Part shown: positions 10,854-63,726 of the stretch, one piece after another
Numbering within the stretch: position 1 is the first letter of the stretch
How the letters are laid out: every line of letters starts with the position of its first letter
NCBI GenBank assembly: GCA_018826515.1
Contig: JAHKAM010000021.1
Coordinates: 1 to 64,000 of the forward strand
Direction: 5' to 3'
DNA from: Alphaproteobacteria bacterium
GTDB taxonomy: Bacteria > Pseudomonadota > Alphaproteobacteria > Caulobacterales > Caulobacteraceae
Length of the DNA: 64,000 nt
Notes under the pieces: model-generated
What the model was told of the DNA's origin: nothing
The model's input: the letters and a program-made list of their open reading frames with translations, nothing else
The model's database searches: none
Translations under genes and position numbers: made by a program

Positions 10854-13805
<2,952 letters not shown>

Positions 13806-13900: not shown

Positions 13901-13915
13901 GAACAATATAAGAAC
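13901..13915 (-). promoter_or_regulatory. LexA (SOS) box upstream of uvrA
   Basis: GAACAATATAAGAAC is a perfect GAAC-N7-GAAC, the reverse complement of the alphaproteobacterial LexA consensus GTTC-N7-GTTC. Read toward uvrA it is immediately followed by TTGCTG, a possible -35 element. LexA bound there would block the promoter. It lies 96 bp from the uvrA ATG and about 110 bp from the divergent lipoprotein gene, and could affect both. Confidence 0.85.
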
Positions 13916-37278: not shown

Positions 37279-37519
37279 CTTCCCCCATTTCAGGGGAAGG
37301 TGTCAGGCGAAATCGAACACAAGGAAGTCGATCGGGACCTGCCGTCGGAAGCGAAGACCATCGAGCGCCTTGTCGCGAACCAGCGACCAGAAGAATTCCT
37401 CCGCCCGGGTCGGCTTCTTGCGCAGACGACGGGCGCGTCTGATCGCCTGTTCAGGCCGCATCCGGCAGGCCCCCATCCGTCTCGCTCCGCGAGCCACCTT
37501 CCCCCGAAATGGGGGAAGG
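37279..37519. mobile_element. Palindrome-bounded unit carrying a DUF559 remnant
   Basis: Two near-identical 23-bp palindromes (CCTTCCCCC-ATTTCA-GGGGAAGG type at 37279-37301 and CCTTCCCCC-GAAAT-GGGGGAAGG at 37497-37519) enclose about 195 bp. That interior is filled by a truncated DUF559 frame. The boundaries of the frame abut both palindromes. This suggests a small mobile or formerly mobile cassette of the REP-associated kind. No target-site duplication could be verified by eye. Confidence 0.5.
37303..37497 (-). pseudogene. Truncated DUF559 (Vsr-like endonuclease domain) gene
   Basis: The 64-aa frame contains RPEQAIRRARRLRKKPTRAEEFFWSLVRDKALDGLRFRRQVPIDFLVFDFA. This is the first half of the ~110-residue DUF559 fold, with its R-x-R-R-x-P-T-xAE, LW..LR and FRRQ-P motifs. 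It stops right after VFDFA, before the conserved acidic E-x-DG-x-xH residues of the active site, so it cannot be an active nuclease. It overlaps the C-terminal codons of the radical SAM gene on the same strand, in another frame. Confidence 0.75.
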
Positions 37520-38587
37520 GAGATCGAAGAGGTCCATCTGCGTCTTCATGTCCGCCGGCGCCTTGAACTGCGTCTCGTCCAGCGGCATCCGGGGGGCGTC
37601 CAGCCGGTAGCGCTTCATCGCCGCCCTGAACCGGGCGGCGATCAGATCGGCGACCGGCCCGGTCCCCTTCATCCGCTGGCTCCAGTCGGCGTCATAGTCC
37701 TTGCCGCCGCGGGTCTGGCGGATCAGGGACATGACCCGGGCGGCGCGGTCGGGGCGGGCGTCGGCCAGCCATTCGCGGAACAGGTCCTTGATCTCGAGCG
37801 GCAGGCGAAGGGTCACATACATGGCCGAGGTCGCGCCCGCCTTTGACGCTGCTTCCAGCACCGACTCCAGCTCGTGATCGTTGAGGCCGGGAATGACGGG
37901 GGCGAAGCCGACCGTGACCGGGCAGCCAGCCTCGGCCAGCCGGGAGATGGCTTCCAGACGCTTCGCCGGCGTCGAGGCGCGCGGCTCCATGGCGCGGGCC
38001 AGGCCCCTGTCGAGGGTGGTGATGGAGACGCACGCCGAGGCCAGCCCGACCTGTCCCATCGGTCCGAGGATGTCGGCGTCCCGGGCGATCAGCACGGATT
38101 TGGTGATGATGCTGAAGGGGTGCCGGAACCGCTGCATCACCTCGAGGATCGAGCGGGTTGAGTTCAGCTCGCGCTCGACCGGCTGATAGGGATCGGTGTT
38201 GCCGCCTATGTGGATGCGTTTGCAAACATAGCGGGGTTTCGTGAATTCCCGCTCCAGCAGACGCGCGGCCTCGGGCTTGAAGAAGAGTCGGCTCTCGAAA
38301 TCCAGGCCCGGGGATAGGCCCATGAAGGCATGGGACGGACGGGCGTAGCAGTAGATGCAGCCATGTTCGCAGCCCTTGTAGGGGTTGATGGATCGGTCGA
38401 AACCGATGTCCGGACTGGTGTTCCGCGCGATGATGGTCCGGGCGTGCTCGGGGGTCAGGGTCGTGCGCAGGGGTGCGGTTTCGACATCGTCGCCTGTCCA
38501 GCCGTCATCGAAGGCCTCGACGGTTTCCGGTTCGAACCGCCCGCTCGCATTCGATCGAGCGCCCCGTCCCTTCGCCGCTTCAGCCAT
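37451..38587 (-). CDS. PA0069 family radical SAM protein
   Basis: This is a 378-aa protein when started at the ATG at 38587. The track start adds 21 residues that read through the LexA box. The radical SAM cluster motif CEHGCIYCYARPSH binds the 4Fe-4S cluster. SINPYKGCEHGC, HIGGNTDPYQPVERELNSTRSILEV and SITTLDRGLARAMEPRASTPAKRLEAI are diagnostic of this SplB-related family. The biochemical target is unknown. A perfect LexA box 24 bp upstream implies SOS induction. The last ~22 residues (LPSPISGEGGSRSETDGGLPDAA) are encoded by the palindromic repeat. Confidence 0.9.
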   Translation of the reverse strand: MAEAAKGRGARSNASGRFEPETVEAFDDGWTGDDVETAPLRTTLTPEHARTIIARNTSPDIGFDRSINPYKGCEHGCIYCYARPSHAFMGLSPGLDFESRLFFKPEAARLLEREFTKPRYVCKRIHIGGNTDPYQPVERELNSTRSILEVMQRFRHPFSIITKSVLIARDADILGPMGQVGLASACVSITTLDRGLARAMEPRASTPAKRLEAISRLAEAGCPVTVGFAPVIPGLNDHELESVLEAASKAGATSAMYVTLRLPLEIKDLFREWLADARPDRAARVMSLIRQTRGGKDYDADWSQRMKGTGPVADLIAARFRAAMKRYRLDAPRMPLDETQFKAPADMKTQMDLFDLPSPISGEGGSRSETDGGLPDAA

Positions 38588-38610
38588 AAGGGCAGGATAG
38601 CTGAGAAATA

Positions 38611-38625
38611 GAACAAAGCAAGAAC
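38611..38625 (-). promoter_or_regulatory. LexA (SOS) box upstream of the radical SAM gene
   Basis: GAACAAAGCAAGAAC is a perfect GAAC-N7-GAAC, 24 bp from the start of the PA0069-type gene. The position is that of an operator overlapping the transcription start. The nearest other gene, tRNA-Leu, is transcribed away from behind it and would not use it. Confidence 0.8.
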
Positions 38626-38765: not shown

Positions 38766-38850
38766 TGGTGCGGATGAGAGGACTCGAACCTCCACGCCTC
38801 GCGGCGCTGGAACCTAAATCCAGTGCGTCTACCAGTTCCGCCACATCCGC
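38766..38850 (-). tRNA. tRNA-Leu (anticodon TAG)
   Basis: The minus-strand acceptor GCGGATG pairs with CATCCGC. The anticodon stem CTGGA-TTTAGGT-TCCAG holds TAG. A long variable arm (GCGCCGCGAGGCGT region) is typical of class II tRNAs. The T arm is GGAGGTTCGAGTCCTCT. CCA is encoded (TGG at 38766-38768 on plus). Confidence 0.95.
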
Positions 38851-45905: not shown

Positions 45906-48329
45906 ATGCTTCCGATCCATGCCGTTCTCGGGCCTCTCAGGGCCGCTCTGGCCGCAGGCAACACCGCTGTCCTGGCTGCGCCGCCGGGCGCCGGCAAGAC
46001 GACCGTCGTACCGCTCGCGCTGCTGGAAGAGCCGTGGCTCGACGGCGGAAAGCTGTTGGTTCTGGAGCCCCGAAGGCTGGCGGCGCGGGCGGCGGCGGAG
46101 CGCATGGCGGCGACTTTGGGCGAGCAGACGGGCGACACGGTCGGCTACCGCACACGTCTTCAGAGCCGGATCGGACCCCGCACGCGGATCGAGGTCATCA
46201 CGGAGGGCGTCTTCACCCGCATGATCCTGGACGATCCGGGGCTGGATGGCGTCGGGGCGGTGCTGTTCGACGAGTTCCATGAGCGTTCGCTGGACGCCGA
46301 CCTCGGGCTGGCGCTGGCCTGCGAGACGCAGGGTCTGCTGCGCGAGGACCTGCGCCTGCTGGTGATGTCCGCGACGCTGGATATCGGCGGCGTCTCCCGC
46401 CTGCTGGACGGCGCGCCGGTGATCGAGGCCGAGGGGCGGATGTTCCCGGTCGAGACCCGCCATCTCGAGCGCAACCCGGTCGAGCGGATCGAGGACGCCG
46501 CGGCCCGGGCCGTGATGCAGGCGCTGGGCGAGGAGACGGGATCGGTACTGGTCTTCCTGCCGGGGCAGGGAGAGATTCACCGCACGGCGCAGCGGCTGCT
46601 GGACCGTCTGCGCGACCCGACGGTGGATGTGGTTCCGCTTTACGGCGCCCTGGACCGGGAAACGCAGGACCGGGCCATCGAGCCGGCGCCGACCGGGCGG
46701 CGCAAGGTGGTGCTGGCGACGTCGGTGGCCGAAACCAGTCTGACCATCGAAGGCGTACGGGTGGTCATCGACGGCGGCCTGTCGCGCGTGCCGCGGTTCG
46801 AACCTTCCAGCGGTCTGACGCGGCTGGCGACGGTGAAGGTCAGCCGGTCCTCGGCGGAGCAGAGGCGCGGCCGGGCCGGGCGCACCGAACCGGGGGTCTG
46901 CTACCGGCTGTGGGACGAGGCGGCGACGCGTGGGCTGGTCCCGCACCAGCGGCCGGAAATCCTCGAGGCGGACCTGACCGGCTTCGCCCTCGACCTGGCG
47001 CGCTGGGGGGCGCGGTCGACCGAGGCCCTGGCGCTGCTGGATCAGCCGCCGGCGGGGGCCTTCGCCGAGGCGCGCAAGGTGCTGGCGCGACTGGGCGCGC
47101 TGGACGAGGCCGGCGGCCTGACCGCCCACGGCCGGCGTCTGACGCGCATCCCCCTGCCGCCGCGGCTGGCGCACATGGTCGCCGCGGCCGCCGACGCCGG
47201 CGACGCGATGCTGGGCGCACGGATCGCGGCGGTTCTGAGCGAACCGGGCCTCGGCGGGACGGATTCAGACCTGAGAGACCGGCTGCGCAGTCTGGACCGC
47301 GACCGCTCGCCGAGGGTGCGCGATGCGATGAAGCTGGCCGAGCGCTGGGCGCGGGCCGCGGGCGGCGGGCAGGGGGGCGAAGCCGATGTCGGCGCCCTGC
47401 TGGCCGAGGCTTTCCCTGAACGGGTCGCCAAGGCGCGCGGGAAGCCGGGCGAGGTGCTGCTGGCCTCGGGACGGGGGGCATTTGTTGAGCCCGCGGACGC
47501 CCTCGCGCGCGAACCCTGGCTGGCGGTCGCCGAACTGGGCGGCGGCGATGCGCGCGACCGTATCCGTTTGGCGGCTCCCGTCGATCCGGCGGCGCTGGGC
47601 GGGCGGATCGAGGTTGAGGACCGGCTGACGCGCGAGCCGTCGGGACGGATGACCCTGCGCCGGATACGCCGCATCGGCGCGATCACGGTCGATGACAAGA
47701 TTGTCGGGGCGCCGGACCGGGGCATGGTCACCGCCGCGCTGAAGGCCGAGGTAGAACGGGATGGGCTGGCCGCGCTGCGCTGGGGCGAACGGGCGTCGGG
47801 GCTGCGGGCGCGGCTGATGTTCGTGGCCGGGCTGGAGGATGGCTGGCCTGATGTTTCCGACGCGGGTCTGTCTGCGACGCGAGAGACCTGGCTGTGGCCG
47901 CTGCTTGAGACGGTGCAGGGCCTCGACCGGATCGAGGACGGCGCGCTGGAAGCGGGGCTGCGAACCTTGGTTCCATGGGACCGACAGCGGGCGCTGGACA
48001 CGCTGGCGCCCGCGCGGCTGGCGACCCCGCTCGGCTCGGCGGCCATCGACTATGCGGCAGAGGGCGGGCCGAGGGTCGATATCCGCGTGCAGGAGTTGTT
48101 CGGAACGACGGATCATCCGACCGTCGGCGGCGGGCGGGCGCCCCTGACGCTCGCCCTGCTGTCGCCGGCGCGGCGGCCGGTTCAGGTGACCAGGGACCTG
48201 CCCGGGTTCTGGGCCGGCAGCTGGGCGGCCGTGCGCAGCGAAATGCGCGGTCGCTATCCGCGCCATCCCTGGCCGGAAGATCCGACGAAAGCCGAGGCCA
48301 CCAGCCGGGCCAAGCCGCGCGGGACGTAA
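45906..48329 (+). CDS. hrpB: ATP-dependent helicase HrpB
   Basis: This is an 807-aa DEAH/RHA helicase when started at the ATG at 45906. The track ORF begins inside the divergent promoter. Motifs are Walker A AAPPGAGKTTVVPLALL, DEFHERS near residue 121, MSATLDI, FLPGQGEIHRTAQRLLD, and QRRGRAGRTEPGVCYRLWDEA. The HA2/OB-like C-terminal region follows, including WPEDPTKA near the end. HrpB is a DNA or RNA helicase whose bacterial role is poorly defined. No neighbour suggests a partner. Confidence 0.95.
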   Translation: MLPIHAVLGPLRAALAAGNTAVLAAPPGAGKTTVVPLALLEEPWLDGGKLLVLEPRRLAARAAAERMAATLGEQTGDTVGYRTRLQSRIGPRTRIEVITEGVFTRMILDDPGLDGVGAVLFDEFHERSLDADLGLALACETQGLLREDLRLLVMSATLDIGGVSRLLDGAPVIEAEGRMFPVETRHLERNPVERIEDAAARAVMQALGEETGSVLVFLPGQGEIHRTAQRLLDRLRDPTVDVVPLYGALDRETQDRAIEPAPTGRRKVVLATSVAETSLTIEGVRVVIDGGLSRVPRFEPSSGLTRLATVKVSRSSAEQRRGRAGRTEPGVCYRLWDEAATRGLVPHQRPEILEADLTGFALDLARWGARSTEALALLDQPPAGAFAEARKVLARLGALDEAGGLTAHGRRLTRIPLPPRLAHMVAAAADAGDAMLGARIAAVLSEPGLGGTDSDLRDRLRSLDRDRSPRVRDAMKLAERWARAAGGGQGGEADVGALLAEAFPERVAKARGKPGEVLLASGRGAFVEPADALAREPWLAVAELGGGDARDRIRLAAPVDPAALGGRIEVEDRLTREPSGRMTLRRIRRIGAITVDDKIVGAPDRGMVTAALKAEVERDGLAALRWGERASGLRARLMFVAGLEDGWPDVSDAGLSATRETWLWPLLETVQGLDRIEDGALEAGLRTLVPWDRQRALDTLAPARLATPLGSAAIDYAAEGGPRVDIRVQELFGTTDHPTVGGGRAPLTLALLSPARRPVQVTRDLPGFWAGSWAAVRSEMRGRYPRHPWPEDPTKAEATSRAKPRGT

Positions 48330-48342
48330 CCGGCGACGGTCC

Positions 48343-48891
48343 CTATCCCGCCATGCGGCGGATCAGTCCGTCCCGCAGGACCATCTGGTGGTACAGGGCG
48401 GCGCTGATATGCAGGCCGACCAGCCCCGCCAGGGCCCAGCCGGCGAAATAGTGGACATACCATGCGCCAGCCCAGAGGCGTTCGTCCTCGACCGACGGTG
48501 TGAACAGCGTCGGAACCGTGAACAGGCCGATCACGGACATATCGACCTTCATGTGGACGAGGACGATATAGCCCGACACCGGCAGAATGATCAGCAGGAC
48601 ATAGATCAGGCCGTGAACCACCTGCGCCGCCCGTTCGCGCCAGGGCGGTTCGCCGGTCAGCGGTTGCGGCGGCCGATACGAAAGGCGCCACAGGACCCGC
48701 ATCAGGATGAAACCGGTCAGGATGACGCCGAACTGGAAATGGTTGCGGATCAGGATCAGGCTGACGTCACGGCGACTCTCGTTCTCGGCCAGCCAGCCCG
48801 ACAAGAACTGGCCCACGATCATCACCGCGACAGTCCAGTGCAGCACGCGGGCGACGAGGCCCCAGGACCGGCTGGAATTCCGCAGGCGCAT
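48343..48891 (-). CDS. Cytochrome b561 family protein (second copy)
   Basis: This is a 182-aa protein when started at the ATG at 48891 (MRLRNSSRSWGLVARVLHWTVAVMIV). The track ORF adds 50 residues. It has four helices with haem histidines in RVLHWTV, RNHFQFGVILTGF, WYVHYFAGWALAGLVGLHISAALYHQMVLRDGLIRRM. It is paralogous to the gene at 6866-7408. It is convergent with hrpB and 13 bp away from its stop. Confidence 0.88.
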   Translation of the reverse strand: MRLRNSSRSWGLVARVLHWTVAVMIVGQFLSGWLAENESRRDVSLILIRNHFQFGVILTGFILMRVLWRLSYRPPQPLTGEPPWRERAAQVVHGLIYVLLIILPVSGYIVLVHMKVDMSVIGLFTVPTLFTPSVEDERLWAGAWYVHYFAGWALAGLVGLHISAALYHQMVLRDGLIRRMAG

Positions 48892-59999: not shown

Positions 60000-60014
60000 G
60001 AACAATACCGGAAC
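60000..60014 (+). promoter_or_regulatory. LexA (SOS) box upstream of the sidA candidate
   Basis: GAACAATACCGGAAC is a perfect GAAC-N7-GAAC, 20 bp before the ATG at 60035. TTGACG (59975-59980) and ACATAGA near 59995 could be the -35 and -10. LexA would then cover the transcription start. A third GAAC lies at 59982. Confidence 0.85.
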
Positions 60015-60034: not shown

Positions 60035-60130
60035 ATGGCGCGTTGGGTGAGGGATACATTGTCGCTGGCGTCCTGCGGCGGCTTCGTCTGGGTCATCTGG
60101 CAGGCGGCGCTGATGACCACGGCGATCTGA
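60035..60130 (+). CDS. sidA: Probable SOS-induced cell division inhibitor SidA (31 aa)
   Basis: The ATG at 60035 has GGAG nine bases upstream and encodes [20 protein letters not shown] followed by [11 protein letters not shown]: a short amphipathic start and one transmembrane helix. SidA of Caulobacter is a 29-aa single-helix inner-membrane peptide that is SOS-induced and stalls division by binding the FtsW-FtsN apparatus. Size, topology, the LexA box directly in front and the position beside dnaE fit. I cannot align the two sequences here. The ORF track shows only a longer frame from 59900 that reads through the promoter. Confidence 0.75.
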
Positions 60131-60270
60131 CGCCGCCCGGCGACCTCCCGGACCTGTCCACAAGCCGTGTGGGCGCATCGGTCCTCCTCGCTGCTTTCCG
60201 GTGTTCCGGTCGCCCGCGATGTGAGACTCGGTCCAGAACAGGCGCATCCATCAGGAGGGACGGGACCGGT

Positions 60271-63725
<3,455 letters not shown>

Positions 63726-63726
<1 letters not shown>

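Follow-up and report, generated by a model that had tools for sequence, protein, structure and literature searches.

The analysed window, a stretch of 64,000 nucleotides from a member of the Caulobacteraceae (a Brevundimonas, to judge by its named relatives), carries on its minus strand (37451–38587) a gene for a radical SAM protein of 378 residues (P0001), whose ATG start codon lies at 38587–38585. The assignment of this gene to the PA0069 family, proposed in the preliminary description from the letters and translations, is borne out by the family model NF033668 (504.5 bits against a cut-off of 360, aligned over positions 1–348 of its 348) and by Pfam, in which Radical_SAM (PF04055) is the sole domain above cut-off. 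Upstream of the gene, the forward-strand letters GAACAAAGCAAGAAC at 38611–38625, reading GTTCTTGCTTTGTTC on the coding strand, form an exact alpha-type LexA (SOS) box, assigned on this match and on its conservation among orthologues; the perfect box claimed earlier is indeed there and does precede the start codon, at a distance of 23 nt and not of the 24 bp then given. The [4Fe-4S] cluster motif, C73-x3-C77-x2-C80, is encoded at 38348–38371 (minus strand); the translation reads CEHGCIYC, which is the CxxxCxxC already recognised, and the three cysteines are invariant in the aligned orthologues. Overlapping this stretch, the codons for GCEHGC (38357–38374, minus strand), at which serine-recombinase islands and prophages attach in sister genomes, are uninterrupted in the window copy, and the gene is intact. 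It appears to stand alone; a tRNA-Leu (38766–38850) lies 140 bases upstream.

Exact GAACN7GAAC sites number six in the window against 1.03 expected, and 105 in the whole genome, where the reversed pattern occurs 27 times; by itself, therefore, a single box proves little. Three of the six sites precede recognisable genes, namely the PA0069 gene, uvrA (10854–13805, minus strand), with a box at 13901–13915, 95 bp before it, and dnaE (60043–63726 by open reading frame, plus strand, its true start being uncertain), with a box at 60000–60014; uvrA and dnaE are plausible SOS genes, and their boxes serve as internal positive controls. The remaining exact sites (11133–11147, 46274–46288, and 48502–48516), the interiors of which are mostly GC-richer, stand before no recognised SOS gene and are probably chance matches. 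The LexA repressor is encoded in the same genome (C12:126173; TIGR00498, 186.7 bits), and its gene is directly preceded by two exact boxes, at C12:126092 and 126129.

A search for LexA boxes upstream of PA0069-type genes had been suggested in the preliminary description, together with the view that boxless orthologous promoters would speak against SOS control. Upstream regions were sampled at the level of genus, class, and phylum, amounting to 164 unique promoters, gammaproteobacterial ones included; the alpha set consists of 132 promoters (30 from Brevundimonas and 102 unique ones from other alphaproteobacteria), the beta/gamma set of 32, and the span searched was about 330 bp upstream of the orthologue start. 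An exact GTTCN7GTTC is present upstream in 30/30 Brevundimonas orthologues and in 91/102 of the other alphaproteobacterial ones, that is, in 121 of the 132 alpha promoters (about 92%), while nine of the 102 are counted as lacking an exact box, one of these having too little upstream sequence to judge. Control searches were nearly empty: the reversed pattern was met in 1/30 genus and 3/102 other alpha promoters, spacers of N6, N8, or N9 gave 0–2 matches, and shuffled upstream regions gave a mean of 0.58 per 132, with a maximum of 4. In the beta/gamma promoters the alpha pattern is absent (0/32), and the other LexA palindrome, an exact CTGTN8ACAG, is found in 23/32, at most some 80 bp from the start, the other nine being without it; the latter motif occurs in none of the alpha orthologue promoters. 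Among the 80 loci that were named individually, 67 carry the alpha box, and several of the boxless ones are labelled as gammaproteobacterial or otherwise non-alpha. It is very improbable that the box is a random match, one of the roughly 100 sites of its kind that the genome holds, a reading suggested by the excess of exact sites in the window and by the three that precede no recognised SOS gene, since the box is conserved across alpha orthologues at a fixed distance with controls near zero and the motif is exchanged for another in beta/gamma ones; for the PA0069 family as a whole, the alpha conservation refutes it. To judge from promoter sequence, the gene very likely belongs to the LexA/SOS regulon.

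The anatomy of the aligned promoters suggests how the box may act. The interior of the 121 aligned boxes reads TTGNTTT, so that a predicted -35 element, TTGCTT in the window (38616–38621, minus strand), falls inside the LexA box, its TTGNTT pattern being conserved, and lies 16 bp from a predicted -10 element, TATCCT (38594–38599, minus strand). The position of the latter is conserved as well: TAnnnT stands at an offset of 26–28 from the start of the box in 60 of the 121 promoters, compared to 0–8 at each of the remaining offsets between 15 and 44, and is separated from TTGNTT by a spacer of 16–18 bp. A strict sigma-70 scan flags no promoter at 38594–38621, and the assignment of the two elements thus rests on conservation and not on consensus. 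The first in-frame ATG follows the box at 23–25 bp in 83/121 promoters, and Shine-Dalgarno-like motifs accompany only 10 of these 83. Given a -35 inside the box and a spacer of 16–18 bp, the transcript is expected to begin at the ATG itself; transcription is accordingly predicted to start near 38587 and to produce a leaderless mRNA.

As to the enzyme, the Pfam scan of the PA0069 protein revealed neither photolyase nor FAD-binding domains, Radical_SAM alone exceeding the cut-off, which speaks against a light-driven FAD DNA photolyase. Direct sequence search of solved structures returned only weak fragments of NifB and SkfB and unrelated proteins, and the relation to spore photoproduct lyase (SPL) was therefore reached through the fold: the six best PDB matches found by Foldseek for an AlphaFold2 model built on 29 orthologues (pLDDT 82) are all SPL structures (E 4e-8 to 4e-7, TM 0.52–0.61, rmsd 5–7 Å), with 4k9r, 4fhf, and 4fhc at the top (E 4e-8 to 7e-8), the similarity being moderate. 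A profile comparison with SPL, for which the query sequence was validated by its near-identity to PDB 4FHC, aligns a TK...EPR...RL...AG...AP block. The earlier description of the gene as SplB-related thus holds at the level of the fold, where SPL is the best match, and fails at the level of the SPL family: the family model TIGR03886 gives 11.5 bits against a cut-off of 437.55, and the hydrogen-donating cysteine of SPL has no counterpart. TIGR03886 has no members in the 58 alphaproteobacteria searched.

In SPL, Cys141 is the essential H-donor (PMC3742179). Its site, ACTSD in SPL, aligns with G/T129 at the head of the G/T-N-T-D stretch of the family motif GxNTDPYQPxE, of which T131-D-x-Y-Q-P-x-E138 is encoded at 38174–38197 (minus strand); the equivalence is drawn from equal spacing, D to K being 31 residues in both proteins, by way of the aligned TK. 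The orthologues aligned share no conserved cysteine beyond the three of the cluster. Two tyrosines of the radical transfer chain of SPL have different fates, since the equivalent of Y97, Y79, is invariant in the aligned orthologues, whereas that of Y99 is Tyr in Brevundimonas and Phe in over half of 168 orthologues. It is improbable, then, that the gene encodes a true SPL repairing 5-thyminyl-5,6-dihydrothymine in vegetative alphaproteobacteria, in spite of the top fold match, the Tyr kept at the Y97 site, and the name splB borne by such a gene in the literature (PMC3323433); the score under the SPL model, the Gly/Thr-Asn-Thr-Asp at the Cys141 place, and the Phe so common at the Y99 site all stand against it. 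Compared with B. subtilis SplB (PDB 4FHC, 4K9R), the PA0069 protein has in common the cluster motif, the invariant Tyr before the third cysteine, the TK/EPG/RL/AGY/AP block, and the best fold match, and it differs in the Cys141 H-donor that it lacks, in the residue mostly found at the Y99 site, in scoring far under the SPL model, and in having no sporulation context. As it fails the SPL-family model and is without the essential fourth cysteine, the protein is, on its sequence and modelled fold, a relative of SPL with different hydrogen handling and not an SPL. The closest other curated family is that of Rv2578c (NF038135; 194.5 bits), which shows the same motif region and is likewise interrupted by inserted elements (inteins in some members, NF038136); the PA0069 protein scores under the 430-bit cut-off of that family.

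The DNA-damage role put forward in the preliminary description is supported by the promoters, and the conservation of the box in some 92% of the 132 alpha promoters, with a clade-specific equivalent in 23/32 beta/gamma ones, makes it the best reading of the data; on this basis a function in the DNA-damage response is likely. More specifically, we consider it quite probable, from sequence and structural model, that the PA0069 gene is SOS-inducible and LexA-repressed and that its product acts on damaged or abnormal nucleic acid according to an SPL-like radical plan; the box with its deep conservation, the family, the fold relation, and the absence of the SPL cysteine are observed, and we infer from them that LexA binds, that damage induces the gene, where transcription begins, and that the substrate is a nucleic acid. 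LexA would occupy the box containing the -35 element and bar RNA polymerase; RecA filaments on damaged DNA would bring about LexA self-cleavage and allow transcription from or beside the ATG; the induced leaderless mRNA would give the radical SAM enzyme, in which the [4Fe-4S] cluster and S-adenosylmethionine would generate a 5'-deoxyadenosyl radical able to attack the damaged or abnormal nucleic-acid substrate, the chemistry following the general plan of SPL minus the cysteine-based hydrogen return.

A different substrate has also to be weighed, namely that the enzyme is SOS-induced but serves in dNTP or RNA modification, or works with RNase HII in removing ribonucleotides. In some alphaproteobacteria, the PA0069 gene is followed by rnhB on the same strand (L207, L228, and 20 or more further named loci), often along with a CcrM-type methylase; motif searches put codirectional rnhB downstream in at least 22 of the 80 named loci and the methylase signature in 18 of them, and where rnhB trails the PA0069 gene in this way RNase HII is possibly co-induced by SOS. 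NF033668, moreover, is typed only as a 'hypoth_equivalog'. In Brevundimonas, however, no rnhB neighbourhood was seen and the gene is apparently alone, the fold is related to that of a DNA-repair enzyme, and SOS control is strict, so that a substrate other than damaged DNA is conceivable but rather unlikely, and action on damaged or abnormal nucleic acid is the reading that we retain.

The idea of SOS control for this gene is sound and not new in kind, and PA0069 itself presumably belongs to the LexA regulon of P. aeruginosa. For alpha- and betaproteobacteria alike, Sanchez-Alberola et al. (2012, PMC3323433) predicted that 'splB' is controlled by LexA, and the 'splB' of that paper would correspond to the PA0069 family. 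Both systems present a SplB-like gene placed under two divergent LexA motifs across alpha and beta; in that work the gene is read as photoreactivation by an SPL homologue and attention is centred on multi-chromosome bacteria, whereas here the family is named (NF033668), 164 unique promoters are tested, and SPL identity is tested and does not hold. SplB-like radical SAM proteins have further been tied to ImuB-C (PMC3765255), and COG1533 SplB has been called SOS-regulated in several species (PMC8565304); in Streptomyces venezuelae the radical SAM gene vnz_31145, which may belong to another family, is bound by LexA and induced 20-fold by mitomycin C (PMC9380542). The literature search returned no paper reporting LexA binding or induction for a PA0069 gene by name, and nothing linking the Rv2578c family with LexA; the main text of a recent Caulobacter LexA study does not name the gene. 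What is new concerns the scale of the promoter test, the anatomy of the promoter, the failed SPL membership, the use of the CxxxC codons as an attachment site, and the replacement islands.

The PA0069 gene is present in 123/131 Brevundimonas genomes and is split in several of them at the codons GCEHG/C; indeed, junctions in five sister genomes (G039, G033, G555, G557, and G040) identify the CxxxC codons as the attachment site of serine-recombinase elements. In the complete genome G039, a prophage of 49.8 kb lies within the gene (C1:1501241-1552084; L251-L253), with a terminase domain detected by Pfam and a 587-aa large serine recombinase. The latter is encoded on the strand of the host gene, beginning 27 nt beyond the junction, and has the host box and the broken N-terminal piece upstream of it. 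In G033 (C1/C17; L256, L257), a related recombinase, 87% identical, starts 39 nt past the junction. Because 27–39 nt leaves little space for a separate promoter, the prophage integrase is probably transcribed from the SOS promoter of the host, as far as can be told from this arrangement. At their far end, both prophages have an exact GTTCN7GTTC of their own, about 97 nt from the core. Resolvase, Recombinase, and Zn-ribbon domains are found by Pfam in the recombinases of G039, G555, and the IMG/VR contig L265, beside the split target gene. The position of the integrase behind the host promoter is not general, since in other elements (IMG/VR L265, L273, L274, L278) the recombinase adjoins the C-terminal piece, from which it points away. 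No close phage copy of PA0069 was found in the phage and plasmid collections, and the viral contigs scanned with the prophage integrase gave no match.

In a second type of element, the gene is replaced. A single contig of G555 (C8:900-17116, L296) contains, in order, the box, the host N-terminal piece, a complete PA0069 copy, some 12 kb of cargo, a serine recombinase on the opposite strand, and the host C-terminal piece; the islands of G557 (C134/C112; L297, L298) and G040 (C286/C216; L255, L258) start in the same way, and in all three genomes the distance from the core to the ATG of the island copy is exactly 24 nt, with the host LexA box upstream. Only in G555 and G557 was the recombinase of the replacement islands itself observed. 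A tree groups four island copies in a single clade (100/97), separate from 31 host genes that include the host piece of G555. All four have the attachment codons rewritten, from GGCTGCGAACATGGCTGC in the host to GGTTGCTCCCATGGATGT, GGTTGCGCCCATGGTTGT, and GGTTGCAGCCATGGATGT in the islands, and the recoding changes Glu74 to Ser or Ala (GCEHGC to GC[S/A]HGC), at a position where Glu is kept in 168/168 orthologues examined. The literature search, of partial coverage, met no account of a site-rewritten replacement copy behind an SOS promoter.

Some further arrangements were observed at the same site. G541 (C6:836789-838149, L299; C4:25-2718, L300) has two N-terminal pieces and, after them, a third copy that is incomplete, a stacking that suggests repeated insertion at one site. 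The island of G040 carries, directly behind its PA0069 copy (L258:1681-5304), TRIP13, a CD-NTase cyclase, and a 4TM effector, a CBASS-like set. The non-alpha genome G355 (C1:77869-97961; L259, L260) harbours a similar, independent island at the same codons, with its own full PA0069 copy, synonymous changes at the site, and, on sequence inspection, cargo of the arsenic/metal type.

The nearest parallel that we found is that of the Streptomyces serine-integrase phages Samy, PhiJoe, PhiOZJ, and PhiWTR, whose attB sites lie in radical SAM genes (PMC12924846): large serine integrases and a radical SAM attB are common to both, and the Samy target is sometimes annotated SplB-like, whereas the Streptomyces hosts belong to another phylum, and the accessible part of that report describes neither a replacement copy nor recoding nor a host LexA box.

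An SOS-controlled PA0069 gene may be an integration platform, in which cargo inserted past the junction falls under the host LexA promoter, the islands adding a recoded copy and the prophages an integrase; for this proposal we judge the case to be evenly balanced. Serine-recombinase elements would enter the codons of the iron-sulfur motif, and the genes just past the junction would gain the host LexA promoter; the rewritten replacement copy of an island would keep the enzyme SOS-inducible and at the same time guard against re-insertion, and with a prophage integrase behind the host LexA box, damage to the host DNA would itself trigger excision.

PA0069 proteins are widespread. A predicted LexA switch is kept at the PA0069 relatives in most of the sampled Proteobacteria that have the gene, and its near-universal presence in the alpha set, along with a clade-specific motif in beta/gamma, argues for looking for a lesion or a by-product of DNA damage as the substrate. 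With the SPL cysteine missing, the chemistry must differ from that of the one known relative. The islands, which replace the PA0069 gene and do not simply break it, suggest that its loss is costly, and their E74S and E74A copies offer natural variants for testing a glutamate that is otherwise invariant.
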